Positions 6,769-34,666 of a stretch of 64,000 bases of DNA are shown one piece after another; within the stretch, counting starts at the first letter, position 1, and every line of letters begins with the position of its first letter. A program made the position numbers and the translations under genes. Origin of the DNA: an uncultured Methylophilaceae bacterium (lineage in GTDB: Bacteria; Pseudomonadota; Gammaproteobacteria; Burkholderiales; Methylophilaceae). The stretch spans positions 1-64,000 of the forward strand of contig CAIQFD010000061.1 in the NCBI GenBank assembly GCA_903870995.1, read 5' to 3'. Below the pieces are notes generated by a model. That model was not told where the DNA came from, made no database searches, and saw only the letters and a program-made list of their open reading frames with translations.

Positions 6769-8856
6769 ATGGACATCCAATTAACCTACCGCACAGCATT
6801 GCAACATCATCAGCAAGGGCAGTTAGCACAAGCTGAGGAGCTTTATCGTCAGGTATTGGAAGCGTCACCACATCATGCAGATGCCTTGCATTACTTGGGT
6901 GTTATTTACCACCAAAATGGCCGTCATGATTTGGCGGTGTCAACCATCGCCCAAGCACTTGCAATAGCTCCTAATAATGCCGACTTTTTAAGCAATCAGG
7001 CGCTTGCGCTCAAAGCTGCAGGGCGCTTAGAAGATGCAATTAACACCTTACAACATGCCTTAAGTCTCGCGCGTGATGATTTAGAAATTCATTACAACTT
7101 AGGTAACGCTTATACTGAATGTCATCGATATAAAGAGGCAGCCAAGTGCTATCGACGTATTCTGCAAGAATACCCTCAAGACGAGGACTTGAAACAGGCG
7201 CTATGTTACGCGCTACAAAACTTGGGTAATGACTATCAACAATCTGGGCAATACACTAAGGCAGAAGCCGTTTACCAAGAAGCAATATCTATCATCAGCA
7301 ATGAAGCCAACCTTCATTACAACTTAGGGAACGCAAAGCGCGAACTCGGCAAGGCTTCAGAAGCAGCAGCACACTATCAACAAGCCATTCAAATCAACCC
7401 CAACGATGCTGATACTTATAACAACTTAGGCAATGTGCAACGGGAATTGGGTGATTTAGCCGCCTCAATTGCCTCCTATCAAAAAGCTTTAGATATCAAC
7501 CCCAAGCTTTATCACGCCAAAGTGCACTTAGTACATCAGAAGCAGCATATTTGCGACTGGAAAGACCTAAATAAAGAAATTAGCGAAATACGCGAATGGG
7601 TTAAGGATGTGCCAGAAGCACAAATCTCCCCTTTCGCTTTTCTCGCAATGCCAGGCACAACAGCAGATGAGCAAAAAAAATGCGCCAGTAATTGGCTTAA
7701 AAACCGCTACTCATCAGCTTTTAATCAAGGCAAGGCATTAACTTTCAAATATACGAACAACCATCAAAAGCTTCGCATTGGCTATTTATCTGCTGACTTT
7801 AGATTACACCCCTTAGCTTCTCTCATCTCTGAATTGATTGAGTTGCACGATAGAAATGCTTTTGAAATTCATGCTTATTCATATGGTCTAAATGACCAAA
7901 GCGCTGAGCGCAAACGCATTGAAAAGGCTTTTGATCACTTTCAAGATATCCGCCCCTTAGCAACACTAGATGCTGCAACCAAGATTAACCAAGACGAAAT
8001 TGATATTTTGGTAGATTTAACAGGCTTTACCCAAACCAGCCGGAGTCAAATCGTGGCACTCCGCCCTGCACCAATCACAGTTAGCTGGCTAGGATTTCCT
8101 GGCACGATGGGAGATTTGAATGGCGAGCCGCTGTTTGATTACCTACTGAGTGATGCGTTTATCACTTCGCCAACGAAAGCAAATATTTATTCAGAAAATC
8201 TTGCATTACTTCCGCAGACTTACCAACCTAATGATAGAAAGCGCCCTGTAGGAAAAGCCAAGACGCGAATGGAATGTGGCTTACCAAAAGATGCTTTCGT
8301 ATTCTGCTGTTTTAACCAAACATTCAAAATATTACCGGAGGTATTTGATTGTTGGATGCGTCTGATCAAACAAGTGCCAAACAGCGTTTTATGGCTATTG
8401 GAATGTAATCAATGGGCAAAGGCGAATTTAATTAGCGAGGCAGAAGCACGCGGCGTCAACAAAGATCGTCTAATATTTGCACCGCGCCTTTCCATGGCTG
8501 ATCATATGGCAAGACAGGTTTGCGCTGATTTATTTTTAGACACTCAACCATACAATGCACACACCACGACCAGTGATGCGCTTTGGATGGGCTTGCCAGT
8601 GTTAACTTGTGCCGGAGATACTTTTGCAAGTCGAGTGGCTGGGAGTTTGCTCAAGGCAGCGAATTTGGATGAGTTAATTACCTACTCATTAAGTGACTAC
8701 GAAAATAAAGCCTTGGCACTCGCAAGCAATCCCAATGATTTAACGCGTATCAAAGCCCATCTATTAGCGCATCGTGAGGGGTTGCCATTATTTGATACCC
8801 CACAATTTGTTAAAGACTTAGAAAGTCTCTATAAGCGCATCAAGCCTGCTCATTAG
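6769..8856 (+). CDS. TPR-containing O-GlcNAc transferase-like (SPINDLY/GT41) protein
   Basis: N-terminal TPR repeats; C-terminal GT41-like segment (RIGYLSADFRLHPLASL, DILVDLTGFT, APITVSWLGFPGTMG, DTQPYNAHTTTSDALWMGLPVLT). Confidence 0.9.
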   Translation: MDIQLTYRTALQHHQQGQLAQAEELYRQVLEASPHHADALHYLGVIYHQNGRHDLAVSTIAQALAIAPNNADFLSNQALALKAAGRLEDAINTLQHALSLARDDLEIHYNLGNAYTECHRYKEAAKCYRRILQEYPQDEDLKQALCYALQNLGNDYQQSGQYTKAEAVYQEAISIISNEANLHYNLGNAKRELGKASEAAAHYQQAIQINPNDADTYNNLGNVQRELGDLAASIASYQKALDINPKLYHAKVHLVHQKQHICDWKDLNKEISEIREWVKDVPEAQISPFAFLAMPGTTADEQKKCASNWLKNRYSSAFNQGKALTFKYTNNHQKLRIGYLSADFRLHPLASLISELIELHDRNAFEIHAYSYGLNDQSAERKRIEKAFDHFQDIRPLATLDAATKINQDEIDILVDLTGFTQTSRSQIVALRPAPITVSWLGFPGTMGDLNGEPLFDYLLSDAFITSPTKANIYSENLALLPQTYQPNDRKRPVGKAKTRMECGLPKDAFVFCCFNQTFKILPEVFDCWMRLIKQVPNSVLWLLECNQWAKANLISEAEARGVNKDRLIFAPRLSMADHMARQVCADLFLDTQPYNAHTTTSDALWMGLPVLTCAGDTFASRVAGSLLKAANLDELITYSLSDYENKALALASNPNDLTRIKAHLLAHREGLPLFDTPQFVKDLESLYKRIKPAH

Positions 8857-9760
8857 TCGCAGCGAACAAAGCTGCCACAACAATCAAAGCACCCCCTAAC
8901 CATTCTCTTGCAGACATGGTCTCATCGGTTAAAAAGTATGAAGCAACTGCAGCAACAACCAACTCAAACATAAACAAAACAGAGGCTTTAGTGACTGGGA
9001 TGTGGGTAATTCCGTACTGAACAAACAAAGTGGCACCCATTAACAAAAGTGCGATAAAAACCATCAACAGCCACTGCGTAACATTCATGTCCATCGGGTT
9101 TGGAAACGGCGCATCTTGAAACACAATAAACACGAGAGACATCAAAAGTACGCCAATCCAAACCGCCATGGATTTGGCTGTGAGCGTCAAATTTGAGGCA
9201 TATCGTGTAATCACATTCGTCAATGCAAAGCCCATCCCAGCAGACAAGGCAAGCCATTCAGCATTGTTATTAGGCAATGGCAAGGCGCCATCTTGCCAAA
9301 ACATGGTAAATGCACCAATTAATGAAAGGATAATCACTGCAACACCACGCCTATTGGTGCGCTCTTTGAGCCAAAAATGCGCCATGACGAGTGTCCAAAG
9401 CGGTGATAAATAAAACAGCAACATCACCCGCATCACTTCACCATCAATAATCGCTAAGACATAGCTTAAATTAGTCCAACCAGCAACGATGGCCAACCAA
9501 ACAATGACTTTGGGTTGATGAATAGCAGCGCGCCATTGCTTAAACAAGATAACGGCAAAAATACCAACTGCAATGACGTAGGTATAAAAGCTAGAGGCCA
9601 CCCCTGAAACGCCCGCTTCTTGCATAATGCGGTAAGGATACCAAATGACGCCCCAACAAACGGCGCCAAACAAAAGTCCAAAAATGGCGAATTGATTTTC
9701 GTGGTTTTTTAATAATGAGTGACTCAATCTATACTTTCTAATTTGCTTGAATTGTTGCAT
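8840..9760 (-). CDS. DMT superfamily (EamA) transporter
   Basis: 306 aa with 10 predicted TM helices; EamA-like repeats. Confidence 0.85.
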   Translation of the reverse strand: MQQFKQIRKYRLSHSLLKNHENQFAIFGLLFGAVCWGVIWYPYRIMQEAGVSGVASSFYTYVIAVGIFAVILFKQWRAAIHQPKVIVWLAIVAGWTNLSYVLAIIDGEVMRVMLLFYLSPLWTLVMAHFWLKERTNRRGVAVIILSLIGAFTMFWQDGALPLPNNNAEWLALSAGMGFALTNVITRYASNLTLTAKSMAVWIGVLLMSLVFIVFQDAPFPNPMDMNVTQWLLMVFIALLLMGATLFVQYGITHIPVTKASVLFMFELVVAAVASYFLTDETMSAREWLGGALIVVAALFAATNEQA

Positions 9761-9800
9761 GAGTGTTTAAGCGTCATGCCGCTTCATTTATAATGACCAG

Positions 9801-10985
9801 ATGAACTCAAATCTCAACAAATTACAGCCTTATCCATTTCAACGTTTGCGTGACTTATTTAGCGGCATTACACCGAATGCCGCCTTCAAGCCTGTCAATC
9901 TCTCCATAGGTGAGCCTAAGCATGATACACCAGCACTGATTAAACAAGCCTTGATTGATAATCTTGCTGGCTTAGCAACCTACCCGACAACCGCTGGCGT
10001 GCCTGAACTTAGGCAAGCGATTTCGAACTGGGCATCACGCCGCTATGGCATTCCACTGCTTAATGCAGAAAAAGAGATTGTGCCTGTCAATGGCAGTCGC
10101 GAAGCTTTGTTTGCCTTTGCGCAAGCAGTGATTAATACAAAAAAAATAGCGAATCCTATCGTGATTTGCCCTAATCCGTTCTACCAAATCTATGAAGGCG
10201 CAGCCTTTTTAGCAGGCGCCGAGCCCTACTTCCTCAATACGTTGCCTGAAAACCAGCATGCGATGGATTTCGAAAGCGTACCCGTTGAGATTTTGAATCG
10301 TACACAGTTAGTCTATGTATGCTCACCGGGCAACCCATCCGGCAAAGTGATGAGCCTAGATCAATGGAAAAAAATCTTCGAGCTGTCCGACTTATACGGC
10401 TTTGTGATTGCGGCAGATGAATGCTACTCCGAGATTTACTTTGATGAAGCCATTAAGCCTTTGGGTGCTCTGGAAGCTGCACAAAAATTAGGTCGTGATT
10501 ATTCACGTTTGGTGGTATTTAGCTCTCTATCTAAGCGATCTAACGTTCCAGGCATGCGTTCAGGCTTTGTAGCAGGCGATGCTCAAATTCTTGAACAATT
10601 CCTGCTTTACCGCACTTACCACGGCTGTGCAATGAGCCCTTCTGTGCAATCAGCAAGTATTGCCGCTTGGAATGACGAAGCTCATGTGGTTGAAAATCGT
10701 AGGCTTTATGCAGAAAAATTCAAGACCATTACGCCAATGCTCGAAAATACGTTAGATGTTGAAATGCCTGACGCTGCTTTCTATCTTTGGGCCAAAACTG
10801 ATATGCCCGATACTGAAGCTGCGATTCGTTTATATCGAGACTTTAATGTGACGGTGTTACCAGGTAGCTTTTTAGCACGTGAAGCGCATGGAGTTAATCC
10901 AGGGAAGCACTTTATTAGATTAGCTTTAGTGGCGTCATTGGATGAATGCATTGAAGCGGCAAATCGCATTAAAAACTTAATGTGA
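9801..10985 (+). CDS. dapC: Succinyldiaminopimelate transaminase
   Basis: PLP class I aminotransferase; MNSNLNKLQPYPFQRLRDLF start, SSLSKRSNVPGMRSGFVAGD Lys motif typical of DapC. Confidence 0.92.
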   Translation: MNSNLNKLQPYPFQRLRDLFSGITPNAAFKPVNLSIGEPKHDTPALIKQALIDNLAGLATYPTTAGVPELRQAISNWASRRYGIPLLNAEKEIVPVNGSREALFAFAQAVINTKKIANPIVICPNPFYQIYEGAAFLAGAEPYFLNTLPENQHAMDFESVPVEILNRTQLVYVCSPGNPSGKVMSLDQWKKIFELSDLYGFVIAADECYSEIYFDEAIKPLGALEAAQKLGRDYSRLVVFSSLSKRSNVPGMRSGFVAGDAQILEQFLLYRTYHGCAMSPSVQSASIAAWNDEAHVVENRRLYAEKFKTITPMLENTLDVEMPDAAFYLWAKTDMPDTEAAIRLYRDFNVTVLPGSFLAREAHGVNPGKHFIRLALVASLDECIEAANRIKNLM

Positions 10986-10995
10986 TTTTTAATAA

Positions 10996-11949
10996 TTAGT
11001 TTTTAATTAATTGATTTATTTCATTAAAAACTAAATCAATCATATTCGGATTAAGGCAATCGACCTCAACAGTATCACCCATGCCACGTAGCCAAGTCAG
11101 CTGTCTTTTCGCTAACTGGCGCGTGGCAAAAATTCCCCTATCTCGCAATTCAGTTGCATCGTAATCACCTGCCAAATGTTCTAATGCTTGGCGATAACCT
11201 ACGCAGCGCATAGAAGGCAATTCAGCCGTCAACGATGGATATTGATTAAGTAAGGCTTTCACTTCCTCTAAAAAGCCTTGTTTCAACATATCGTCAAATC
11301 GAACCGCTATTCTGCTATGCAAGACAGCTCTATCGGAAGGCACCAAAGCCACTTTGAGCAAGCGATAAGGAAGGTCATCACCACTCGATGCGTTGTGCAA
11401 CTCGGTCATGGTTTTACCACTAATCTCATACACTTCCAATGCCCTCTGAACACGCTGCGCATCTCCAGGTTCAAGTCTAGCTGCCGTTTCAGGATCTATC
11501 TTGGTGAGTTTGGCGTGCATCGAAGGCCAGCCAACTTGCAAGGCTTCAGCGTCCAACTTTGCGCGCACACCTGGATTGGCCTCAGGCAAAGCACTTAACC
11601 CACCCTGAAGCGCCTTAAAATAAAGCATGGTGCCGCCCACCAATAGAGGTACTTTACCTCGCGCCGTAATATCAGCCATTAACTTCAAAGCATGGTTTCG
11701 GAAATGCGCAGCTGAATACACTTCAGTTGGTGGAATTAAGTCTATTAAATGGTGCGGCGCCTGCGCCAACGTTGTCCCATCAGGCTTGGCTGTGCCAATA
11801 TCCATCCCTTTAAATACAAGCGCAGAATCTACACTAATCAACTCTACGGGCAAATGTTTGTAAAGCTCAACCGCAAGACCAGTCTTACCACTAGCGGTCG
11901 GGCCCATCAGAAAAATAGCAGGTGGCAAAGCGGACATTTTACTTACCAC
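10996..11949 (-). CDS. miaA: tRNA dimethylallyltransferase MiaA
   Basis: [18 protein letters not shown]-loop, [16 protein letters not shown]. Confidence 0.96.
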
Positions 11950-18062: not shown

Positions 18063-19685
18063 ATGACTTCAAGCCTATTTAAAAAGCTCAGCTACGCCCT
18101 ATTTGCTGGACTTGCAATTTTCATCCTACTGACCTTTAAGCAATACGGCATCAGCAATGATGAACAAGTTCAGCATGTGTATGGACAGCTGTTACTCAAG
18201 TTTTACAGCTCAGGCTTTGCAGACCAATCAGCTTTTATCTACAAAAATCTATATTTATACGGCGGTTTCTTTGACTTAGTCGCCGCTTCATTAGAAAAAA
18301 TCTTACCGATTTGGGTGTGGGACATTCGTCACCTACTCTCAGCGATCTTTGGATTAGCCGGCATTGTCGCCGTATACAAAATCACCTTAAAACTCGCTGG
18401 TGAGCGCGCTGCGTTTCTCGCAGCCTTATTGCTTGCGCTGACGGGCGCCTGGACTGGCGCAATGTTCACTCACACCAAAGATGTATCGTTTGGTGCATGC
18501 ATGGCGTGGGCGCTTTATTACACAACACTTATCTCAGATAAGTTAGATCGCATTCCATTCAAATCGAGTGTACTACTAGGGATCGCGATTGGCTGTGCGA
18601 TTGGCTTGCGCATTGGTGGTGCTTTTGCGGTCATCTATTTATTACTTCTTCTACTCATTGCGAGCTTCATTCAAACCACATCGATTAAAGAAAAAGTCGC
18701 TTTTTACAAGCGCGCGGTTTTAGGCTTATTGCCGGCGGGTGTTGTGGCTTTCTTACTCATGGCTTTATTTTGGCCTTGGGCACTGATGGGTGCAAACCAT
18801 ATTCTGATTGCTGCAAAATCTTTCTCACATTTCGCATTCAACATGAACACTATCGTCGATGGGACTTTTATTAGCATCGGTGAGGTTCCTAGAACCTACT
18901 TGCTTGAGTATTTAGCAATCAGATTGCCTGAAGTTTTTTTAATTGGCGTACTCAGCATGGTCATCATTTTATTGCTAACCATGCCGCGGAGCTTTAAGCA
19001 GAACAAAGGCTTTTTTAAAAACAAGCTCCCAGAAATATCGCTCGCCATCTCGATTTTATTCCCATTGCTATTTGTACTCTATGACAAACCAGCCTTGTAT
19101 AACGGTGTTCGTCACTTCACCTTTATTATCCCGCCGCTTGCGGTCTTAGCGGGAATGGGCTTATCGCAAGCTTGGGATAAGCTTGCATCACATCCCAAAT
19201 GGCAGCTTGGTTTTGTATTATTAAGCACAGCTTTAGCGCTTAATACGGCTTACATTTTATTTGAACTACGTCCTTACGAATACATCTATTACAATCACTT
19301 TGCTGGCAAAAACCTCAAGCAAGCTGAACATAAATGGGAAGCAGATTACTGGTCTAGCAGCCTAATTGATGCGACGAAAATGCTAGAAAACTATTTAGAT
19401 GTGGAGCAAAAGAACTGGCCGCCAGAACACCAAGGTCCCTACTACGTAGCTGTGTGCGCTGAAGCCTTCCAAGGTCGCGCATATCTGGATGATCGCTTCA
19501 ACATCACCGAAAATTGGGTGCGTGCAGACTTTTTTATTTCAAGCACGCACATGAACTGCGATAAAGTATTAAAAGGTAATATCATCGGCACTGTCGAGCG
19601 CTTGGGTGCGCCTTTGGCCGTAGTGAAAGATCGCCGGAACTTACTGGGCGAGGATAGACGCCCACACGCAGCGCCTCAAGATTAA
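18063..19685 (+). CDS. GT-C/GT39-like polytopic membrane glycosyltransferase
   Basis: About 540 aa, multiple TM helices, early loop with ISNDEQVQHVYG acidic motif typical of the PMT/ArnT superfamily; start chosen at MTSSLFKK. Confidence 0.8.
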   Translation: MTSSLFKKLSYALFAGLAIFILLTFKQYGISNDEQVQHVYGQLLLKFYSSGFADQSAFIYKNLYLYGGFFDLVAASLEKILPIWVWDIRHLLSAIFGLAGIVAVYKITLKLAGERAAFLAALLLALTGAWTGAMFTHTKDVSFGACMAWALYYTTLISDKLDRIPFKSSVLLGIAIGCAIGLRIGGAFAVIYLLLLLLIASFIQTTSIKEKVAFYKRAVLGLLPAGVVAFLLMALFWPWALMGANHILIAAKSFSHFAFNMNTIVDGTFISIGEVPRTYLLEYLAIRLPEVFLIGVLSMVIILLLTMPRSFKQNKGFFKNKLPEISLAISILFPLLFVLYDKPALYNGVRHFTFIIPPLAVLAGMGLSQAWDKLASHPKWQLGFVLLSTALALNTAYILFELRPYEYIYYNHFAGKNLKQAEHKWEADYWSSSLIDATKMLENYLDVEQKNWPPEHQGPYYVAVCAEAFQGRAYLDDRFNITENWVRADFFISSTHMNCDKVLKGNIIGTVERLGAPLAVVKDRRNLLGEDRRPHAAPQD

Positions 19686-19705
19686 TACTAAAGAACGGAA
19701 CCTCC

Positions 19706-20725
19706 GTGAATAATAGAACCAACGCCAATCCTCACATCACCATCATCGTGCCAGCCTTTAACGAGGCGGCGGCGATTGCGCACACGGTTAACCATATCGC
19801 GCAGCATCTCAAGGCGCTAAGCCGCGATTGGGATATTTTAGTGATTGATGATGGCAGCCGTGACAACACTTCAGATGTTGTGCGTAATTTAGACAAAGAT
19901 TTGAACACAAGCTTGGTGCGTTTTTCCCGTAATTTTGGTAAAGAATATGCCATAACGGCAGGCCTAGAACACGCCGAAGGGGATCTCGTTATTTGTATGG
20001 ATGCTGACGGTCAACACTCAGCCGAGTTATTGGGTGAAATGTTAGCTAAGTGGCGCGAGGGCTACGACATGGTCTATGCCGTGCGCCAAGACAGAAATGT
20101 AGAGTCTGCATTCAAACGCTTTGGATCTCGCCTCTTTTATCGCGCCATGAGCCTTGGTGGACAAATCAATATTCCTCGTGATGCTGGTGACTTCCGCCTC
20201 ATGGACAGGCAAGTCGTCAATGCGCTATTGTCCCTGCCTGAGCGTAACCGTTTTATGAAGGGCATCTATGCTTGGGTGGGATATAAGTCGATTGGCATTC
20301 CTTACTTCCCTTTAGACCGCACGCACGGCGAAAGCACCTTCTCAAAATTGAAACTCGCACAACTTGCTTGGACGGGTGTGACAAGCTTTTCAGTAATGCC
20401 TCTTCGTTTAGCAAGCGGCGTTGGTGCGGGGTTAGCTTTTCTTTCTTTCATCTATGGCGTCTGGGTAGTCATCGATAAAATGTTTTTCAGCGAATCTATT
20501 CCTGGTTGGCCAACCGTGGTGGCAAGCATGATGTTCTTTGCAGGGGTTCAACTTCTATTCATTGGTATTTTAGGCGAGTATTTAGCGCGTGTTTACGACG
20601 AAGTTAAAGGCCGCCCTTCCTACATCGTAGCTGAAGTAAGCAAGCCTGCTTCAAAAAGCCCATCACAATCTAAATCAACAAAACCAAAAGCTGTCAAACC
20701 TGCTGAAAAAGACTTACTGGGTTAA
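19706..20725 (+). CDS. DPM1/GtrB-like polyprenyl-phosphate glycosyltransferase (GT2)
   Basis: ITIIVPAFNEAAAIAHTV, LVIDDGSRDNT, MDADGQH, C-terminal 2 TM helices. Confidence 0.92.
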   Translation: MNNRTNANPHITIIVPAFNEAAAIAHTVNHIAQHLKALSRDWDILVIDDGSRDNTSDVVRNLDKDLNTSLVRFSRNFGKEYAITAGLEHAEGDLVICMDADGQHSAELLGEMLAKWREGYDMVYAVRQDRNVESAFKRFGSRLFYRAMSLGGQINIPRDAGDFRLMDRQVVNALLSLPERNRFMKGIYAWVGYKSIGIPYFPLDRTHGESTFSKLKLAQLAWTGVTSFSVMPLRLASGVGAGLAFLSFIYGVWVVIDKMFFSESIPGWPTVVASMMFFAGVQLLFIGILGEYLARVYDEVKGRPSYIVAEVSKPASKSPSQSKSTKPKAVKPAEKDLLG

Positions 20726-21117
20726 TGTCACAAGGGCACTCACAATCCGCTTCATGGTTTGCTATCGTTGGGGCACTGGCTGCGCTAACACATTACGTTA
20801 CCGCAGTTGGTTTTGAGTATAGCGCGCTACTGACTGCATCACATTCCAATATTGCAGGGTTTGTGGCCGCATTTCCGGTGAGTTATTTTGGACATCGAAA
20901 GTTCAGTTTCGCGGGCCAAGATGCAAGCCACTTTCAATCTTTACCGCGCTTCCTCTCAGTCGCAGTCCTTGGGTTTTTAGCTAATCAAACGTTAGTCCTG
21001 AATGCACTTCAATATACAAAACTACCATTTTGGTTTGCATTGGGCTTGGTAATGGTCGTCGTTGCCGTTAGCACATATCTATTGAGTAAGTTTTGGGCTT
21101 TCAAGGGTAAGCGATGA
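20725..21117 (+). CDS. GtrA-like flippase family protein
   Basis: 130 aa, 4 TM helices, FPVSYFGHRKFSF, STYLLSKFWAFK. Confidence 0.88.
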   Translation: MSQGHSQSASWFAIVGALAALTHYVTAVGFEYSALLTASHSNIAGFVAAFPVSYFGHRKFSFAGQDASHFQSLPRFLSVAVLGFLANQTLVLNALQYTKLPFWFALGLVMVVVAVSTYLLSKFWAFKGKR

Positions 21118-21902
21118 AGTTGATTTTGTGTGCAGATGACTTTGGACAAAGCGAGGCTATTGATCAAGGCATTATCAATCTCATCAAAAAGAATCGTTTA
21201 AGCGCCACTTCTTGTATGACGCTCAGCCCTCGCTGGCCAGACGCAGCAAAGAAACTCACACCTAGCATCAGGGAAAAAGCGAGCCTAGGCTTACACCTAG
21301 ACTTCACGCATTTTGGTGAAGCGACATCGCATCCCAAATTAGTCCTACTAAGTCTGGCTCGTCAACTTTCAAAAAAACACATTAAGCAAAGCATTCATCA
21401 TCAGCTAGATGCTTTTGAAGCTTCGCTAGGCGTTCCTCCAGAGTATATTGATGGGCATCAGCATGTGCACCAATTGCCACAAATTAGAGATGCGTTACTC
21501 GAAGTCTTGATAGCGCGTTACCCCAAACAATTACCCTGGGTAAGAATTGCAAAACCACCAATCGCCGATGGTCTTAAAGGCCTGATTATTCGAGCCTTAG
21601 GCGCAAATACGCTCGAAAAGAATGCCAAAAAATTAGGGTTTGTTTGCTCGGGAAGTTTGCTAGGCGCTTACGGCTTTAATGGTTCAAGCGAAGCGTACAT
21701 TCAACGCTTTAAAGATTGGTTAAAAGAAGTCGGGAGCAATGGATCGACGCCGGTTTTAATGTGTCATCCAGCAATTGACGATGGTCAGAATAATGATGAC
21801 GTCATTTACCAAGCGAGAGTGAGAGAGTATTGGGCATTGGCGAGTGATGAACTCGCTAATGATTTAAAGCGCTTTAGTTTGGTGAGAGGCCCAGCCGATT
21901 AA
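21114..21902 (+). CDS. ChbG/HpnK (YdjC-like) carbohydrate deacetylase
   Basis: LILCADDFGQSEAID, LGLHLDFTHFG, DGHQHVHQLP. Confidence 0.92.
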   Translation: MKLILCADDFGQSEAIDQGIINLIKKNRLSATSCMTLSPRWPDAAKKLTPSIREKASLGLHLDFTHFGEATSHPKLVLLSLARQLSKKHIKQSIHHQLDAFEASLGVPPEYIDGHQHVHQLPQIRDALLEVLIARYPKQLPWVRIAKPPIADGLKGLIIRALGANTLEKNAKKLGFVCSGSLLGAYGFNGSSEAYIQRFKDWLKEVGSNGSTPVLMCHPAIDDGQNNDDVIYQARVREYWALASDELANDLKRFSLVRGPAD

Positions 21903-21918: not shown

Positions 21919-22416
21919 CTAGCTTTGTGCTGGCACAACTGCAGGTAGTTTTTTAATTTTGTTACTTAATTTAACCATTTTGGTTGGTTTTTTCATCACG
22001 CAATATTCAGAACCATAATCGCCACCATTTTCATCTGGCTCGTAATAATGATTGGTATAAGCCCAACGAGTATTTGAGATTCGTTGAATATCGGCGATAC
22101 CAGTACTATATTCGGCATTACGTCCATCGGTAATGTTAAAAGTCATCGCCAACTTGTATCCGTTGGCAATCGCCTGGCCTTTATATACAAGTGCGTTTTC
22201 TGTTTCAGTATTAAAGTCATACATACCAAAACTGCCATGACTACTTATACGGTTAAGCTTAAGTGTGGCGGTTACTTCATACTCACCCACTTTATTATTC
22301 GTACCTTTACACAAATAAACACCACTAAAGTTTGATCCAATAAACTGCTCTTTAGCTTCAGCAACACTAACATTCAAGCCAATGGACAACAAAACAACTA
22401 AAGACAGTTTTTTCAT
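21919..22416 (-). CDS. Hypothetical secreted protein
   Basis: 165 aa with signal peptide MKKLSLVVLLSIGLNVSVAEA; no recognised domain. Confidence 0.7.
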   Translation of the reverse strand: MKKLSLVVLLSIGLNVSVAEAKEQFIGSNFSGVYLCKGTNNKVGEYEVTATLKLNRISSHGSFGMYDFNTETENALVYKGQAIANGYKLAMTFNITDGRNAEYSTGIADIQRISNTRWAYTNHYYEPDENGGDYGSEYCVMKKPTKMVKLSNKIKKLPAVVPAQS

Positions 22417-22615
22417 GCGATTTTCTTAGAGGGATTTAACAAAGTAACTATTGTAGCGTGATGCAAGCCTACGTAGTAGATGAACTGTATTTCTTTTGAT
22501 AATTTATGTTTTTCTTTTGTTTTTGAGGGTGGCGTAGATTATCATAAGCGCTTCGCCAGCGATCTAAAAGCTACGCTTTGAATTGATGCCGCTGACGCCC
22601 TATTCTCAGGATTTT

Positions 22616-24187
22616 ATGACGACATCAAGTCACCAACCGACATCAAGGTCTATTTGGCGTTACAGCGCCTTTAATCTCATGCTATTGTCGTTGCTTTCAG
22701 CATGGCTATGGCAACAAAATCAACCGATCGCGCTACCGGTGCCAACCATTCCATCTGATGGTAAGTTGCAATGTGTTTCTTACTCGCCTTATTACAACAA
22801 AGGTCAAACACCACTCAACATTAATACCATCATTAGCCATGACCAGATTGACCGTGACTTAGCCAAACTATCAACACAATTTGATTGCGTGCGCATCTAC
22901 TCAGTTGGACAAGGTTTAGATTACGTGCCCGAAGCCGCGTCCAAGCTTGGGATGAAGGTCTATGTCGGCGCATGGATAGGCTGGATTAAAAAGCTCAATG
23001 AAAAAGAGTTGAAGCTCGCGATATCCGTGGCGAACAAATACCCTGACACTGTAAAAGCCCTTGTCATCGGCAACGAGGTCCTGTTGCGCGGGGAACAATC
23101 AGAATCCGCCATGAAAACCTACATTGAGCGCGCAAAAGCTGCTACCAATGTGCCTGTTACCTATGCCGACGTTTGGGAGTTTTGGCGCAAGCACCCTGCG
23201 CTTGAAGGCTCTGTCGATTTTGTCACCGTTCATATCTTGCCTTATTGGGAAGATGATCCTCAGCCTATCGAGCGTGCTGTTGAGCACACACAAAATGTGA
23301 TGAATTTATTGGCCAGCACGTTCAAAAAACCTATTCTTATTGGCGAAACTGGTTGGCCTTCAGCAGGTAGACAAAGGGAAGGTTCTCAACCCAGCCTAAT
23401 CAACCAAGCTTTATATATGCGTAGCTTTTTGAAGGTTGCCGATGAAAAGCATTGGAATTACAACTTAATCGAAGCGGTTGATCAGCCTTGGAAGCGAGGC
23501 CTTGAGGGTACTGTTGGCGGTTATTGGGGTATTTTCAACACAGACTTACAAGCCAAATTCTCTTTTACCGACGACATCGCAGAAAGACATGATGGCAAAA
23601 AAGCGATCTATGCAGGCCTTATCGGCGCTCTACTACTATTGGTTTGGTCACTAGCCCTTAATATCCGTGCCAAAAACTCATTGGTCAGCATGACGCTTCT
23701 TGGTGGGCTCGCTGGGGTTTCAACTTTGATACAAGTTGAGTACCTTATCACGGCATGCCGCGTTCAAAGTGAATGGTTGGCGCTTGGTGGCCTTTGTGCG
23801 CTAGGTCTCATCAGCTTACTTAGCCTGCCCGCCTATGTATTTAAAGCCAACCAAACGGCAAAGCGAATCATCCAGATCACTTTACTGGTCATTTTGCTAG
23901 CGGCATTTAGTGCCAATTACTTACTAATGACTGATGGTCGTTACCGCGACTTTGCAATCAGCTTATATGCATTACCTGTTATTCAGCTATCTATTGGCTT
24001 AATGATACTCAAACAAAACCTCAAAACTCGCTTTTCGGCTTATCGGCTTTTAGGTATCTTACTCACAGTCAGTGCTGCATTTTGCTTATATAAAGAGCCT
24101 AGCAATGTTTTAGCCATGTTCTGGCTTGCACTTTGCGCACTCGTTGCTTGGGCCAACTGGCCAATCAAGCGCACCCCCTCCATTTAA
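22616..24187 (+). CDS. GH17 family protein with C-terminal TM region (NdvC-like)
   Basis: GH17 acid/base VIGNEVLLRG and nucleophile IGETGWPSAGR; multiple TM helices; start at ATG 22616 after CTCAGG. Confidence 0.85.
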   Translation: MTTSSHQPTSRSIWRYSAFNLMLLSLLSAWLWQQNQPIALPVPTIPSDGKLQCVSYSPYYNKGQTPLNINTIISHDQIDRDLAKLSTQFDCVRIYSVGQGLDYVPEAASKLGMKVYVGAWIGWIKKLNEKELKLAISVANKYPDTVKALVIGNEVLLRGEQSESAMKTYIERAKAATNVPVTYADVWEFWRKHPALEGSVDFVTVHILPYWEDDPQPIERAVEHTQNVMNLLASTFKKPILIGETGWPSAGRQREGSQPSLINQALYMRSFLKVADEKHWNYNLIEAVDQPWKRGLEGTVGGYWGIFNTDLQAKFSFTDDIAERHDGKKAIYAGLIGALLLLVWSLALNIRAKNSLVSMTLLGGLAGVSTLIQVEYLITACRVQSEWLALGGLCALGLISLLSLPAYVFKANQTAKRIIQITLLVILLAAFSANYLLMTDGRYRDFAISLYALPVIQLSIGLMILKQNLKTRFSAYRLLGILLTVSAAFCLYKEPSNVLAMFWLALCALVAWANWPIKRTPSI

Positions 24188-24212
24188 TTTATTAAGAAAA
24201 CCCACACCGTTC

Positions 24213-26786
24213 ATGCCTCCATTTTTCAATCGTTATATCAAACCCTTATTTTTCGCGAGTTTGATTGCGCTTATTCATTTTGGGATTTGGAGCGTTTCAA
24301 ATCGCGCTCTGCCTGCGATGAATGCACCTCCTATCGTCAATGGCTTTGCTTATAGTGGATTCCAAGAAAACCAAAGCCCACTAGAAAAAGAATACCCAAG
24401 CACGGCAGAATTGGTGCAAGACTTAAAAATACTCAGACCACTCACCAATCGCATTCGTATATACGGCGCGCTAGAAAACAGTGAAGTCACTGCGCTAGCG
24501 TCTAATTTAGGCTTTGAAGTTACTGCTGGCGCTTGGATTAGTGGCGATCTAAACGCTAATCGCCGCGAAGTGGATGCTTTAAAAGAAAAAATCAAAAACT
24601 ACCCACATATTGAACGTGCAATCGTTGGCAACGAGTCTTTGTTGCGCAACGACTTGCCTGCTGAAGAGCTCTTTAGCTACTTAGATGAAGTCAGAAAGTC
24701 GTCGAAACTGCCAATCTCTACAGCTGAGCCTTGGCACGTATGGCTTAAGAACCCAGACCTTGTTAAACACGTTGATTACATCGCTGTGCATTTACTACCC
24801 TACCACGAAGGCGTACCGGTCGACAAAGCTGTGGATTATGCCTTACAGCGCTATGACGAGCTCATGGAGGCTTATCCACGTAAAAAAATCGTCATCACTG
24901 AAATTGGCTGGCCTAGCCACGGCCCTACTTTAGGTGCGGCTGTTGCTTCAGATGTCAATCAAGCAAGATTCGTACGTGAGTTTTTAGCGAAGACCGCACA
25001 CAAAAATTATGACTATTTCCTGATGGAAGCATTTGACCAACCTTGGAAGCAAAAGCTTGAAGGCTGGGCCGGTGCTTATTGGGGCATGTTTGATGCAGAG
25101 CGTAATGAAAAATATTCATTACAAGGTGCCGTCGCGAAAGATGACCGCTGGGAAGAAAAAGCTTTGTGGGCAAGCTTGCTAGGCTTCTTCCCTATCCTAT
25201 TTATTGCTTATCGCTTTAGGCATTGGGGGCTAGGCGGTCGTTTCTCGATGGCGATATTACTTCAAGCATGCATTACCACATTAGTGGTTGCTTGGAATCT
25301 GCCGGGCGACTACTACTATACCTTGCGTGATTTTGTCGTGCTTATTGCTCTGATTATTGGCATGGGACTCACCTCTGCCGTACTGATGATTTACGGTGTT
25401 GAATTTAGTGAGGTCATGTTCAAGGGTAAATGGAACCGTGCTTACAAGCGTGCAAAGCCAGTGCCTGCTGACCAAGAGCTTTTTGTATCGGTGCATCTAG
25501 CTTGTTATAACGAACCTCCTGAAATGGTGATCACCACGATTGAAAGCTTGGCTAAGCTTAATTACACCAACTTTGAAGTGATTGTGGTCGACAACAACAC
25601 CAAAGACGAAGCTAAATGGAAACCGCTAGAAGCTTATATGGCCAAGATGCCTGACAATTTCCGTTTCTTCCATTTGCCACAATGGCCAGGCTTCAAAGCA
25701 GGCGCATTAAACTTTGCGCTCGACCAAACCAACCCCAAAGCACAAGTCGTTGGTGTGGTAGATGCGGACTATGAAGTCACACCAGATTGGCTATCCGATC
25801 TAGTTCCGCATTTTGCAGACACTAAAGTGGCGGTCGTACAAGCGCCCCAAGCTCACCGCGACTGGGAAAATAACTTCTTCCGCCGCATGAGTAATTGGGA
25901 GTTTGAAGGCTTTTTCCGCATCGGCATGCATCACCGCCATGAACGCAATGCATTAATTCAACACGGCACCATGACGCTTGTTCGTCACAAACCCCTCGTT
26001 GATTTCGGCAAATGGTCTGAATGGTGCATTTGTGAGGATACAGAGCTAGGCTTACGTTTATTAGAAAACGGCTACGAGCTTCGCTACATCGATGATACAT
26101 TCGGTCGTGGCCTCACCCCTTCAGACTTCAAAGCATTGAAGTCTCAGCGCTTCCGCTGGGCTTTTGGGGCCATGCAAATCCTGAAACATCACTTACCAAA
26201 ATTAATTGGCGATTCGACGCTGACGTTTGGTCAACGCTATCACTTCTTAACGGGTTGGTTTGGCTGGCTGGGCGATGCATTACAACTTATTTTCACGATA
26301 GGCTCTATTGCTTGGACAGTCGCGATGCTGGCATTCCCAACCGCATTCAGCTTACCTGTCACGATTATGATTACGCCGATCTTGTGCTTCTTAGCGATCA
26401 AAGCAGCGCTTGGGCCTGTGCTATATCGCAAGACCATGAACTGCAGCTGGAAAGATATTTTTGGTGCCTCTCTGGCAAGCTTAGGCTTATCTCATGCGAT
26501 TGCACGCGGTGTGATGATGGGTATTATCAAGAAAGATGGCGTATTTAAAGTCACCGCAAAAGGCAAAGTAAAAATCAACAAACTTCAAATACTCAGTCCA
26601 ATTATTGAAGAAGTGACCCTACTTGTCTTGTTGATTATTTGCAGTCTTGCAATGCTGATTACGCGCGGTTTTACGAATATCGACGCAGAGCTATGGGTCA
26701 CAATGCTCACGCTGCAATCTTTACCTTATGCAAGCGCACTCGCCTGTCAGATTATTGCGCAGCGCCCTGACCAACCGATTAAATAA
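24213..26786 (+). CDS. GH17-GT2 fusion beta-glucan synthase-like protein (NdvB-like)
   Basis: N-terminal GH17 (IVGNESLLRN, ITEIGWPSHGP), C-terminal processive GT2 (VVDADYEV, EDTELGLRLL, QRFRWAFGAMQIL); start chosen at MPPFFNRY. Confidence 0.9.
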   Translation: MPPFFNRYIKPLFFASLIALIHFGIWSVSNRALPAMNAPPIVNGFAYSGFQENQSPLEKEYPSTAELVQDLKILRPLTNRIRIYGALENSEVTALASNLGFEVTAGAWISGDLNANRREVDALKEKIKNYPHIERAIVGNESLLRNDLPAEELFSYLDEVRKSSKLPISTAEPWHVWLKNPDLVKHVDYIAVHLLPYHEGVPVDKAVDYALQRYDELMEAYPRKKIVITEIGWPSHGPTLGAAVASDVNQARFVREFLAKTAHKNYDYFLMEAFDQPWKQKLEGWAGAYWGMFDAERNEKYSLQGAVAKDDRWEEKALWASLLGFFPILFIAYRFRHWGLGGRFSMAILLQACITTLVVAWNLPGDYYYTLRDFVVLIALIIGMGLTSAVLMIYGVEFSEVMFKGKWNRAYKRAKPVPADQELFVSVHLACYNEPPEMVITTIESLAKLNYTNFEVIVVDNNTKDEAKWKPLEAYMAKMPDNFRFFHLPQWPGFKAGALNFALDQTNPKAQVVGVVDADYEVTPDWLSDLVPHFADTKVAVVQAPQAHRDWENNFFRRMSNWEFEGFFRIGMHHRHERNALIQHGTMTLVRHKPLVDFGKWSEWCICEDTELGLRLLENGYELRYIDDTFGRGLTPSDFKALKSQRFRWAFGAMQILKHHLPKLIGDSTLTFGQRYHFLTGWFGWLGDALQLIFTIGSIAWTVAMLAFPTAFSLPVTIMITPILCFLAIKAALGPVLYRKTMNCSWKDIFGASLASLGLSHAIARGVMMGIIKKDGVFKVTAKGKVKINKLQILSPIIEEVTLLVLLIICSLAMLITRGFTNIDAELWVTMLTLQSLPYASALACQIIAQRPDQPIK

Positions 26787-27722
26787 TTAAGAGACTTGGG
26801 CTTCTGAAACAGACAACAAAGCGGCGCCTACAATGCCAGCTTTGTCGCCTGTAGAGGAAGTTTCGATTTGAACGCGACCACGCAAAACTGGGATAAGGTC
26901 AGTGTTTAATTGTTGATCAAAAACTTCCTCCATCAACGACCAAGCACGACTAACCCCTCCGCCAATCACCACGCGCTTCACATCCACCACTTTTAGAATA
27001 TGCGCCAAACTCTGCGCTAAAGCTTTTGCGGCTATTTCATAAGCTTGTTTGGCATGGCTGTTACCTTGGGTTGCCAGTTTGGCAATCTCATGTGCGGTTA
27101 AATGAGCCCCTGCTAACTCTTGATAGTTTTTGCTAATGCCGGTGGCAGAAGCATATTGTTCAAGACAGCCATGATTACCACAACCGCACAAACGTCCGTT
27201 AGGGCTTGTAATGATATGACCCACTTCCATTGCATAGCCATGCTCACCCACCACAGGATTCCCAGCTTGAATTAACCCACCGCCAACGCCAGTGCCAAGC
27301 CCCACATAAATCAAGCCTTCGCTTAGTGGAACTTTCATTAACTGGTACTCACCGAAAGCTGCAGCCAATGCATCATTCTCAACAACCACTGGCCTCTTAA
27401 TCTTCGTAGACAAATCACCTGCCAAATCAACATTCAGCAGGCCTGGTAAGTTGGGAGATTGCGCAACATGGCCATTATGAGGATCGATAAAACCTGGAAA
27501 ACCAATACCAATCGAAGTGACCTCTGGATATGTGAGTAAAACTTCATTTAAGACTTCACTGATAGAAGCGATAATGGAACGCCAAGCAGTGCTTGGGTCA
27601 TGAGCACCACAGATGCCAGAAAAGTCTGCGTGGCAACGATGCTCGTGAATGATTGACAGCCCATCAACCACACCAACACGTAGGTTAGTCCCGCCAATGT
27701 CAACGCCAATACGCAAGGTCAT
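26787..27722 (-). CDS. ROK family sugar kinase (glucokinase-like)
   Basis: RIGVDIGGTNLRVGVVD; zinc motif GHIITSPNGRLCGCGNHGCLEQYAS. Confidence 0.9.
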   Translation of the reverse strand: MTLRIGVDIGGTNLRVGVVDGLSIIHEHRCHADFSGICGAHDPSTAWRSIIASISEVLNEVLLTYPEVTSIGIGFPGFIDPHNGHVAQSPNLPGLLNVDLAGDLSTKIKRPVVVENDALAAAFGEYQLMKVPLSEGLIYVGLGTGVGGGLIQAGNPVVGEHGYAMEVGHIITSPNGRLCGCGNHGCLEQYASATGISKNYQELAGAHLTAHEIAKLATQGNSHAKQAYEIAAKALAQSLAHILKVVDVKRVVIGGGVSRAWSLMEEVFDQQLNTDLIPVLRGRVQIETSSTGDKAGIVGAALLSVSEAQVS

Positions 27723-27724
27723 TG

Positions 27725-29275
27725 CTAGCCTCTTATCGCCAAGGGGTTGCGTTTATTCTGCAAGACTAAATATTCTAAGGCTTCTGCCAGGCCATCTTTA
27801 AGCTGCACCCAATCAAAGCGCCATTGCCAATTACCTTCTATGGTGCCTGGCGTGTTCATACGATGCTCACTTCCAAGCTTCAGAATATCTTGCATTGGGA
27901 TAATGGCGAGCGTGGCGTTGGATGAGAGTGCCATTTGGATCAACACTAGCGGCATATCAATCACATCATGTTCAACATAACCATGCTCAGTTAAATAACG
28001 ATGAAAAATTTCTCTTTGATGATCGTTCAAGTTCTCATACCAGCCTAAGCTGGTATCGTTATCATGTGTGCCAGTGTAAACGACACTATTCTCAGTAATT
28101 TTTTCAGGTAAATAAGGATTCTCAGCACTGCCATCAAAAGCAAATTGTAAAATCTTCATGCCAGGCAAATCGAACTTTTCGCGTAACGCATTGACTTCAT
28201 CAGTAATAATACCTAAATCTTCAGCCACCAAGGTAATGAGCGGTAAATGCTTGGTAATCGCATCTAGCAAAGCCTCGCCAGGTGCCAAAACCCATTCGCC
28301 ATTCATCGCTGTTGGCGCATCCGCAGGAATCTCCCATGCCGCTTGAAGGCCTCTAAAGTGATCGATGCGCACCATGTCGAACAAAGCATTTTGAGTGCGC
28401 ATGCGGGCAAGCCACCATTTAAATCCATCCGCCTGCATCGCCGGCCAGTTGTAATGCGGGTTCCCCCAGTGCTGACCGGTTTCCGAAAAGTAATCAGGCG
28501 GAACGCCAGCCACAACGGTCATATTCAAATCGGCATCTAATTTAAACATGTCAGGTTGCGCCCATACATCAGCGCTGTCATAGGAAATGAAAATTGGAAT
28601 ATCACCAAACAAAGCAATATGGCGACTGTTTGCGTATTCTTTTAAAGCATGCCATTGCTCAAAAAAAAGGAACTGCTTAAATCGCTCCAACTCAACAGCA
28701 TCTGCAAACTCATGTTGTGCCTGCTTGATTGCTTCCAGCTGACGCAATTTCAAAGCGCTTGGCCAATCACACCAAGAAACATGTTGATAATAGTGACGTA
28801 ATGCAATAAACAAAGCAAAGTCATCCAGCCAATGGGCTTGTTGCTTAGTGAAGCGTTCAAAACTAGCTTGAGCCTGAGGAATGTTAAGACGATTAAAATT
28901 AGTAAAAGCCATTGCGAGCAATACGGACTTATCCTCACTCGCGTCCAAGTCATTTTCTGACAACCAACCCTGTTGTTTCAACACATCTAAACTAATTAAA
29001 TCTAGATTACCTGCATGTGCAGATAAGCATTGGTAAGGTGATCCATCAGCATGTGGCATATTAAGTGGCAAAGTTTGCCATACCGTTGCGCCAATACTCG
29101 ATAAAAAATCAACGAACTTGAATGCATCTTGCCCCAAGTCAGCCTTGGGCAAAGAGGTAATGTGCAATAAAACGCCAGCGCGCCTTTGCTTTAACACCTG
29201 TGCAATATAGGCCAAATCACTCGCCTTCTTGACCGCGACGCATCGTACCCCCAACAGCAGGATCACCACCGCCAA
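27725..29275 (-). CDS. malQ: 4-alpha-glucanotransferase
   Basis: RRAGVLLHITSLP, DHFRGLQAAWEIP, AEDLGIITDEV, TGTHDNDTSLGW; supplied start overlaps the upstream GH57 gene by 59 nt, true start likely near 29213 (TTG). Confidence 0.93.
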   Translation of the reverse strand: MAVVILLLGVRCVAVKKASDLAYIAQVLKQRRAGVLLHITSLPKADLGQDAFKFVDFLSSIGATVWQTLPLNMPHADGSPYQCLSAHAGNLDLISLDVLKQQGWLSENDLDASEDKSVLLAMAFTNFNRLNIPQAQASFERFTKQQAHWLDDFALFIALRHYYQHVSWCDWPSALKLRQLEAIKQAQHEFADAVELERFKQFLFFEQWHALKEYANSRHIALFGDIPIFISYDSADVWAQPDMFKLDADLNMTVVAGVPPDYFSETGQHWGNPHYNWPAMQADGFKWWLARMRTQNALFDMVRIDHFRGLQAAWEIPADAPTAMNGEWVLAPGEALLDAITKHLPLITLVAEDLGIITDEVNALREKFDLPGMKILQFAFDGSAENPYLPEKITENSVVYTGTHDNDTSLGWYENLNDHQREIFHRYLTEHGYVEHDVIDMPLVLIQMALSSNATLAIIPMQDILKLGSEHRMNTPGTIEGNWQWRFDWVQLKDGLAEALEYLVLQNKRNPLAIRG

Positions 29276-30935
29276 GACTAATCGGATGACTGAGTGCTTG
29301 TGGTGCGGGCAGCTTTAACAAACGATACAAATTGCTTAGGTTGCGGCGATACAGCCGATCAAAACTATCCACACTCACGGATGAGTTGTAGTCACCAAAC
29401 CACCAAAACCAATCAGAGCCCTCACAAATAGACAATTGATGCTCACACGCCTTCATCTCATTAGCATTTAATAAGCCTGACTGCATCACTTCATCGTATT
29501 TTTTCTTGGCATCACACAACAAATCCCAACCTAGATTTTTATCCGGTGAACCTATCCATGTACTAAAACTGCCATAGACCCAACTACCCGCTGCGATTTG
29601 AGGAAGTGGCGTTAATGGCTTATTCATCGAGGCCACAATATCGCTAAAGGTGGTCATTTCAATATCTTGATGCGCTGACAATGCTTCGTATAACTCACTC
29701 AAAAAGTAAAACGCGTTATAGGGATAATATTCCCACGCATTCTCACCATCGAGAATGACGCTCACAACACGACTATCGCCACTTTTATTATTTACATGAA
29801 TTTCTTCCAAAGCGCTTATGAAGTCAATCACGGCCTCGCTTGCGTGCAGTTTAGAATACTCAAAGCCAATCTTGTCAGACAGGTTGTCATCTCTAAAAAA
29901 GCACACAATGTCATTGGCGCCATCGGATACTAGGTAAGGCTGATACAAATAGTCGCTACGACTTGGAATAGCGCCTGACTCTGAAGACTTGTATAGGCTA
30001 TTGGCCAACACACCCTCGCCCGTCGCTGCCCATTTCACACCCTGCTCCGCCATTAGTAGCAATCCAGCTTGCGAAACCGCACCCTCAGCTGGCCACATAC
30101 CAACAGGCGCCTGATCAAAACGTTTCTGATGCGTGGCTTGAGCTGATTGAATATGGGCTTTAGCTCTCAAACGCCCGCCAGGATAAGTTTGGCATGAAGG
30201 CAAAGGCGCAAATGGCATAGCATCGCGTGTAGATTTAAAATCCAAGAGCAGCGGCAAAATAGGATGGTAATGCGGCGTAGTCGAAATTTCGATTTGACCT
30301 GTGCTTTGTAGCTTCTTATAACGCGGGATTAATTCACTCATTAATTCACCAATTAAAGAAAACAAACCATGCCTTTCTTCAACGCTAAATTGGCTACCCT
30401 TTTTCATCAAAGCTTGCACAAAGGTATTGTTGCGGCGAATACTTTCACCCGTCCAAGCCAGATGGTACCAAACCAACAAGTCAGCCATATATTGGCCTGA
30501 CAAATAATTTGAAGCTGTAGATCCTTGTACGCGTAAGGCATTATAGATATTCAACAAACGCTGATAATGCGCAAAAGGCTCAAGCATTTTTTCATGATGG
30601 CTTTTAAAACAGCTATCAACGATTAAACAACGCTCTTCTTTTGATAGATATTCGAGATTGTCACGCACTAACAAAGCTAACAAAGGATCACGAACATGGC
30701 TTGTTTTGAATTGATCTACATAGTCTTCAAGTTGATCTAATAAAACAGGCACAAAATTAAATGTCACACGCGCCTTGGGGTTAGTTTCCAAGTGATAAGC
30801 CATGTCGGTGTAATCTTTCATGGCATGGAGGTAAGTCCAAGGCAAAACATATTGCCCTGTAATGGTATCCCGATAATCGGGTTGGTGCATGTGCCAATAA
30901 AGATTAAGGTAAAGCTTAGGTTGCACCGCTGACAT
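29217..30935 (-). CDS. Glycoside hydrolase family 57 (alpha-amylase/amylopullulanase-like)
   Basis: LYLNLYWHMHQPDYRD, GMWPAEGAVSQ, VILDGENAWEYY. Confidence 0.92.
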   Translation of the reverse strand: MSAVQPKLYLNLYWHMHQPDYRDTITGQYVLPWTYLHAMKDYTDMAYHLETNPKARVTFNFVPVLLDQLEDYVDQFKTSHVRDPLLALLVRDNLEYLSKEERCLIVDSCFKSHHEKMLEPFAHYQRLLNIYNALRVQGSTASNYLSGQYMADLLVWYHLAWTGESIRRNNTFVQALMKKGSQFSVEERHGLFSLIGELMSELIPRYKKLQSTGQIEISTTPHYHPILPLLLDFKSTRDAMPFAPLPSCQTYPGGRLRAKAHIQSAQATHQKRFDQAPVGMWPAEGAVSQAGLLLMAEQGVKWAATGEGVLANSLYKSSESGAIPSRSDYLYQPYLVSDGANDIVCFFRDDNLSDKIGFEYSKLHASEAVIDFISALEEIHVNNKSGDSRVVSVILDGENAWEYYPYNAFYFLSELYEALSAHQDIEMTTFSDIVASMNKPLTPLPQIAAGSWVYGSFSTWIGSPDKNLGWDLLCDAKKKYDEVMQSGLLNANEMKACEHQLSICEGSDWFWWFGDYNSSVSVDSFDRLYRRNLSNLYRLLKLPAPQALSHPISLGGGDPAVGGTMRRGQEGE

Positions 30936-30958
30936 TATTGCCCTTTTTGTGACTAAAA

Positions 30959-32242
30959 TTATCTAACTCGATGGGTCGGCGCGCCAAGCATGGCAGCTGT
31001 CACCAAAGTAATTCCTTTTTCTGATACATGGAATCGCTTGCTATCCAACGCCAAATCAAAACCAATTTCCATCCCATCTGGAATCGTTGTACCCTTATCA
31101 ATGACTACGCGTTTAAGCTTTACATTTCGACCAATCTCAACTTGAGGCAAGATAACCGAGTCCTCAATCGAACTAAAACTGTGCACACGCACATCTGAAA
31201 AAAGTACAGATTGATTAATTGTTGAGCCACTAATAATGCACCCGCCAGATACCAAAGAATCTGTCGCTGCGCCGCATCTATCTTTGTTGTTGAACACAAA
31301 CTTAGCTGGCGGCAATTGTTCTTGATACGTCCAAATCGGCCAATCACTGTCATACAAATTGAGCTCTGGCGTGACCTTAGTCAACTCCATATTCGCCTCC
31401 CAATAAGCATCTACTGTTCCAACATCACGCCAGTAGTAAACGCCTTGGTCGCTCCCACCTACACAGCTATCGGTAAATCGGTGCGCATAAACACGATACT
31501 TTTTAATAATTTCAGGAATAATGTTTTTACCAAAATCATGTTCAGATTTCGGATCATCAGCATCTCGAATTAACTGTTCATACAAAAAAGCGGCTGAAAA
31601 AACATAAATCCCCATACTTGCGAAAGCTTGGGTTGGATCACTTGGAAGCGCGTCAGGATGTTCGGGCTTCTCTTTAAAATCAACAACCCTATCCTCCTCA
31701 TTCACCGCAATCACACCAAAAGCCTTAGCATCTTCAATCGGCACATTGATACAAGCAACTGTCATATCCGCTTTGTTACGCACATGTGACGCCAACATTT
31801 GCCCATAGTCCATCTTGTAGATATGGTCCCCAGCAAGGATCAATACATATTCAGCGCCGATATTGCGAATAATGTCTAAGTTCTGAAACACGGCATCCGC
31901 GGTCCCTTTGTACCAGTCTTCAGCCACACGTTGTTGTGCTGGCCAGATTTCAACGAATTCATTGAACTCGCCGCGCAAGAAGCCCCAACCACGCTGAACA
32001 TGCTGAATCAAGCTATGAGATTTGTACTGGGTCGCAACCCCTACTCGACGAATGCCTGAGTTAATACAATTGGATAAAGGAAAATCAATAATGCGAAACT
32101 TGCCTCCAAAGGGCACCGCAGGCTTTGCTCTAAGGTCTGTTAAGTCTTTCAAGCGACTGCCACGGCCTCCTGCCAATATCAGCGCAACAGTATTTTTAGT
32201 GAGGTTACTTACAAAACGTGGTGACGACATCTCTTGCTGCAT
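30959..32242 (-). CDS. glgC: Glucose-1-phosphate adenylyltransferase
   Basis: [62 protein letters not shown]. Confidence 0.96.
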
Positions 32243-32428
32243 GATTCCGCTCCTGACTTATCGTTTTTTTCACACTTGACATTAAGGCTCACTAGCCCCT
32301 AAATATCATTCACATGTCATGTGCTTAATTGCGGTATATTGTTTCTCCTGAGGCCATTATAGGCACGTTAGTCAGCCATAATCTAGTAGAATCATCAGGC
32401 TTTCTTGAAAATTTTTTAGAAAAATACT

Positions 32429-34621: not shown

Positions 34622-34666
34622 GCCTAAATAAATTATAATATTGCAAAATCAACCGAATAATAAAGC

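Follow-up and report, generated by a model that had tools for sequence, protein, structure and literature searches.

The window, the whole 64,000-nucleotide stretch of DNA analysed here, comes from a freshwater methylotroph, from contig 61 of a 1.7-Mb genome in 62 contigs, whose close relatives carry the labels Methylophilaceae, Ca. Methylopumilus and Methylotenera. At 18063-21902, four successive genes on the plus strand encode GT-C, GT2, GtrA and YdjC proteins. These genes, and the features that follow them, are:

18063..19685, plus strand: GT-C polyprenyl-phosphate-sugar transferase (PMT_2), 540 aa, ATG at 18063, with the family-specific motif DExxQHxYG (D33/E34)
19706..20725, plus strand: GT2 with C-terminal TM helices, a GtrB/ArnC-like polyprenyl-phosphate sugar synthase, 339 aa, GTG start
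20725..21117, plus strand: GtrA-family small membrane protein, a putative Und-P-sugar flippase, 130 aa
21114..21902, plus strand: YdjC-family (NaxD-type) N-deacetylase, 262 aa, with D8, D9, H61, H115, H117, H119, R144 and H218 conserved
21919..22416, minus strand: orf165, a secreted beta-barrel-like protein with no Pfam match, which accompanies the glucan locus and not the cassette
22583..24187, plus strand: GH17a, a membrane protein with a GH17 domain (motifs VIGNEV and ETGWP; likely ATG at 22616), a putative glucan-remodelling partner
24126..26786, plus strand: GH17-GT2 fusion, a predicted NdvB-type beta-glucan synthase and proposed acceptor source, whose homologues begin near 24213; architecture as in PMC10514313 and PMC10237404

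The GT2 and GtrA genes overlap by 1 base and the GtrA and YdjC genes by 4 bases (ATGA). The Pfam matches all exceed the curated cut-offs (PMT_2, 34.5 bits; Glycos_transf_2, 117; GtrA_DPMS_TM, 65; YdjC, 179). Coordinates, overlaps and Pfam thus confirm a preliminary description of this DNA as carrying four consecutive GT-C, GT2, GtrA-like and YdjC genes, the last three overlapping or touching. An NCBIfam search with the four cassette proteins found no equivalog above cut-off, and YdjC is present in one copy in the source genome. Elsewhere in the window, we observed a bacterial TPR protein with a GT41 (OGT-like) domain (6769-8856, plus strand), a ROK kinase with a glycogen-type cluster of malQ, GH57, a glgC-like nucleotidyltransferase, a glgB-like gene and pgi (26787-36325), and a DinB-FGE-sulfatase-methyltransferase fusion that resembles the ergothioneine-type EgtB/EgtD fusion (52030-54135, minus strand).

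The GH17-GT2 protein is encoded 2.3 kb downstream of the cassette. Pfam places a GH17 domain fused to a GT2 domain, and the protein contains the motifs IVGNES, EIGWP, DAD, CEDTE and QRFRW; matching catalytic motifs are discussed in PMC10237404. NdvB, which makes group-4 periplasmic glucans, the cyclic β-1,3/β-1,6 type, has this GH17 plus GT2 architecture (PMC10514313). The product of 24126-26786 is accordingly predicted to be an NdvB-type beta-glucan synthase. The intervening orf165 is predicted to form an 8-stranded beta-barrel (pLDDT 82), for which Foldseek gave weak matches of avidin/lipocalin-like kind (best E 1.2e-3). We rejected orf165 as a part of the cassette, as it keeps its place next to the GH17 glucan genes in genomes that lack the cassette or have it at another site (L238, L239, L240).

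In Methylophilaceae generally, the four cassette genes are adjacent and the block is syntenic. Most of these loci are preceded by queG and followed by orf165, GH17a and GH17-GT2, and in the loci compared GtrA sits between GT2 and YdjC, with the exception of L022 (Methylovorus). Both GT-C and YdjC were found in 19, and neither in 18, of 37 Methylophilaceae genomes searched; one of the 18 cassette-negative genomes has a weak GT-C match, 28% identical. Species with the cassette include the laboratory methylotrophs Methylotenera mobilis, Methylophilus methylotrophus and Methylobacillus flagellatus. When loci were found by GT-C alone (n=80), the 6-kb flanks contained YdjC in 69, GT2 in 64 and GtrA in 58. 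The four-gene grouping is therefore real, chance being excluded by adjacency, joint presence and absence, and flank counts. A scan of genome contigs with the GT-C alignment recovered Methylophilaceae, Thauera, Azoarcus, Aromatoleum, Methyloversatilis, Aquariibacter and Ancylobacter/Xanthobacteraceae; outside Methylophilaceae, the same four genes recur in Rhodocyclales and Xanthobacteraceae. They occur in three gene orders, one in Methylophilaceae, one in Methyloversatilis/Aquariibacter and one in Thauera/Azoarcus/Ancylobacter. Because the same genes have been re-associated through rearrangement, we take this as good evidence that they form one functional unit. Among further conserved neighbours, which might have given clues to the acceptor, no family beyond the four genes was broadly common across lineages.

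Several loci depart from this pattern. In L022, L140, L141 (Methylovorus) and L142, GtrA is absent between GT2 and YdjC while the remaining three genes are intact, and these loci suggest that the flippase is replaceable. In L240 (G023, 9485-11261), there is no cassette and queG directly adjoins orf165-GH17a-GH17GT2, indicating that this exact site is where the cassette was either lost or acquired. In L189 and L201, the GT-C is closely related to that of the window but stands alone: a WYL regulator and a Na+/H+ antiporter adjoin it, and YdjC, GT2 and GtrA are all missing from its surroundings.

The preliminary description assigned the GT-C to the FlmK/LgmB type, and this assignment was not supported. 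By BLAST, the window GT-C was unmatched by E. coli ArnT or by eight ArnT-like GT-Cs from YdjC cassettes, whereas those eight and E. coli ArnT match each other (26-31% identity to ArnT). A sequence search against solved structures gave no match even at E<=1, and hhalign of the window GT-C family with the ArnT-like GT-Cs reached 93% probability, with a similarity that is local and at fold level only. The DExxQHxYG motif is present in 34/34 members of the window-type family, and the DExR(Y) motif of ArnT in 0/34; the (D/E)KP motif of ArnT is likewise missing from this family. In ArnT, orientation of the lipid A phosphate is ascribed to the Asp/Arg pair, and contact with the carrier phosphate to the Lys (PMC8306577). 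The AlphaFold model of the window GT-C (mean pLDDT 86) has ArnT as its best structural match (5ezm/5f15), at a TM of only 0.44-0.47, with AglB and AftA close behind. Sequence and model together place the protein as a GT-C polyprenyl-phosphate-sugar transferase of a separate family, whose likeness to ArnT is at the level of the fold only.

Unlike the GT-C, the YdjC and GT2 proteins do have relatives in ArnT-linked cassettes. The window YdjC carries the motifs DDFG, LH, DGHQHVH and a C-terminal HP; its active site is intact, with residues that are conserved in 56 cassette YdjCs. In the YdjC tree, it falls in a 62-row clade (SH-aLRT 100) together with YdjCs found beside ArnT-like GT-Cs and a third GT-C family, separate from a ChbG-like group without a cassette. 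GtrB sll0501 is the solved protein nearest to the window GT2 (265 bits), followed by ArnC (167 bits). The GT2 groups with cassette GT2s, and those of ArnT-linked cassettes are closer to it than E. coli ArnC is; its membership in the GtrB/ArnC-like family is clear, and its sugar specificity is unreadable from sequence. A YdjC with all its catalytic residues, from a subfamily linked to ArnT-type transferases, lends good support to a scheme of Und-P-HexNAc synthesis, deacetylation, flipping and transfer. The donor pathway in the preliminary description (loading of HexNAc, deacetylation, flipping) thus stands, and we regard this route as likely.

In Burkholderiaceae and other Gammaproteobacteria (in the GTDB sense), YdjC and GT2, with or without GtrA, accompany an ArnT-like GT-C or the third GT-C family, and the window-type GT-C was found in none of those ArnT-like or third-family YdjC loci. 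YdjC cassettes are therefore modular as to the type of GT-C. We considered whether the GT-C had been coupled to YdjC/GT2 modules twice independently, as the trees resolve two clades; an AU test, however, failed to reject a single clade (p 0.33 for YdjC, 0.18/0.34 for GT2), and two couplings are consequently not claimed.

These comparisons bear on whether lipid A phosphates receive GlcN or GalN from the module, with an Lgm/Flm-like function served by a non-orthologous GT-C. The set of donor genes is the same, ArnT-linked cassettes contain relatives of both the YdjC and the GT2, and the solved structure closest to the GT-C is ArnT. We nevertheless consider this reading unlikely: the GT-C has no sequence match to ArnT-like GT-Cs and lacks the DExR and KP motifs, whose residues have roles with the lipid A or carrier phosphate (PMC8306577), and YdjC cassettes with ArnT-like GT-Cs occur in the same order without showing the association with the glucan synthase. 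Of the two proteins whose placement away from lipid A systems would, according to the preliminary description, tell against a lipid A acceptor, the GT-C does lie apart, but the YdjC does not, as it belongs to the ArnT-linked clade.

The co-occurrence and linkage of the GT-C point away from the lipid A acceptor that had been predicted, and toward an NdvB-type glucan instead. None of the co-occurrence counts that follow carries a phylogenetic correction, and the controls are unevenly distributed over families. We found the synthase in 19/19 cassette-positive but only 3/18 cassette-negative Methylophilaceae (Fisher 9e-8, kinship ignored), including the cassette-positive G028, in which the cassette is located elsewhere. 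In the family of Aromatoleum (Rhodocyclales, 101 genomes), it was present in 16/16 GT-C-positive versus 13/85 GT-C-negative genomes (4e-11, kinship ignored). All of the 24 genomes chosen for the cassette (24/24) have the synthase, each with a GH17a-like gene; 19 of them lie outside Methylophilaceae and include the alphaproteobacterial Ancylobacter. In contrast, among genomes whose YdjC cassette has an ArnT-like or third-family GT-C, it was present in only 1/24 (24/24 versus 1/24, 2e-12, kinship ignored), although these controls are mostly Burkholderiaceae and the synthase occurs in none of the Burkholderiaceae tested. Across a sample of 398 Proteobacteria, the synthase was present in 21/29 GT-C-positive versus 37/369 GT-C-negative genomes, or, by genera, in 11/14 versus 17/218; the 8/29 GT-C-positive genomes without it have diverged alphaproteobacterial GT-Cs, five of them from one genus. 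The synthase is frequently present without the GT-C. That the GT-C implies the synthase, and not the reverse, is the pattern expected of an enzyme that acts on the product of the synthase.

Cassette and synthase are physically linked in most Methylophilaceae, and usually not in Rhodocyclales. In G1292 (L243), GH17a, GH17-GT2 and GT-C follow one another on the same strand, with 10 bp between the last two, and the GT-C falls inside the cassette GT-C clade (SH-aLRT 99); at this locus, no YdjC, GT2 or GtrA lies near the GT-C. The absence of a nearby YdjC in G1292 and in some diverged relatives would fit a transferred sugar that is not an amino sugar, with YdjC acting in a different pathway and the GT2/GtrA/GT-C trio moving a neutral hexose. 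We judge this very improbable, given the strict co-occurrence of GT-C and YdjC in Methylophilaceae, the 4-base overlap of GtrA and YdjC, and the presence of YdjC alongside the GT-C in each of the three gene orders. Separately, two Bradyrhizobium-like genomes (G584, G594) contain a diverged second GT-C beside a GT2, 7-12 kb from an ndvB-like gene (L223, 8188-9885; L224, 16656-18350); that of L223 additionally neighbours DUF2304 and methyltransferase genes. With an epimerase, a methyltransferase, DUF2304 and GH88 as their neighbours, these second GT-Cs were not counted as linkage to ndvB-like genes.

A further possibility is a different target exposed to the periplasm, either a glycan or a protein (O-antigen, core, capsule or glycoprotein), which the module would modify in the style of GtrABC seroconversion. 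GT2, GtrA and GT-C together form the GtrABC architecture (PMC11127046), and the GT2 is closest to a GtrB. The Methylophilaceae locus, however, sits between queG and the glucan genes and contains no O-antigen genes, and this reading, which we find somewhat unlikely, leaves the co-occurrence with the NdvB-type synthase unexplained.

Our analysis suggests the following mechanism. GT2 would charge undecaprenyl phosphate with an N-acetylhexosamine (GlcNAc or GalNAc), which YdjC would deacetylate on the cytoplasmic face, and GtrA would flip the resulting Und-P-hexosamine. In the periplasm, the GT-C would then transfer the amino sugar, most likely onto a beta-1,3(/1,6)-glucan of the group-4 osmoregulated periplasmic type, produced by the NdvB-type GH17-GT2 synthase next door together with GH17a. 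We infer the sugar, the order of the steps and the acceptor; gene content, catalytic residues, association and co-occurrence are sequence-based. That the four genes are a dedicated periplasmic glycosylation module that decorates a group-4 periplasmic glucan with an amino sugar is the best explanation we can offer, held with slightly less than even confidence. Still more tentatively, we propose that a previously undescribed GT-C family, with its own GT2, YdjC and GtrA, puts a cationic amino sugar on NdvB-type glucans in several orders of Proteobacteria. The fallback in the preliminary description, "another envelope acceptor", may apply.

These findings indicate that the donor module (GT2, YdjC, GtrA) is separable from the GT-C that defines the acceptor, and that a YdjC cassette alone is no predictor of lipid A modification or polymyxin resistance. 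If decoration of the glucan is correct, then periplasmic glucans gain a cationic sugar substituent through a donor module that is elsewhere paired with ArnT-like transferases. According to a review, OPG backbones consist of D-glucose alone and carry acyl substituents (PMC9558356), so that decoration with an amino sugar would be without precedent in the literature found.

The cassette can be compared with four known systems. The GpgSDF pathway for GlcN-phosphatidylglycerol in P. aeruginosa also combines a glycosyltransferase, a deacetylase and a flippase to make an amino-sugar lipid (PMC12713373), but its families are unrelated (GT4, COG3233 deacetylase, UPF0104 flippase) and it has no GT-C; we ruled out a pathway of this type for the window cassette, as the protein families differ. 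GtrABC O-antigen glycosylation uses the same GtrB-like GT2, GtrA and GT-C, all of which are present in the window, whereas the window has an extra YdjC deacetylase, a GT-C that is conserved across orders rather than serotype-specific, and no O-antigen context. With NdvB-type group-4 glucan synthesis (Bradyrhizobium ndvBC, Pseudomonas ndvB), the downstream gene shares the GH17 plus GT2 architecture and the motifs (PMC10514313, PMC10237404), but an adjoining, co-occurring glycosylation module is undescribed for those systems in the literature found. Finally, Bordetella Lgm and Francisella FlmF2-NaxD-FlmK have the same GT2, YdjC-type deacetylase and small flippase feeding an Und-P-amino sugar to a periplasmic GT-C. 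In a comparison in which ArnT-linked YdjC cassettes served as proxy for the named FlmF2, NaxD, FlmK and LgmA-D sequences, the window GT-C differs in that it is not ArnT-like in sequence or motifs, and in that it is linked to, and co-occurs with, a glucan synthase.
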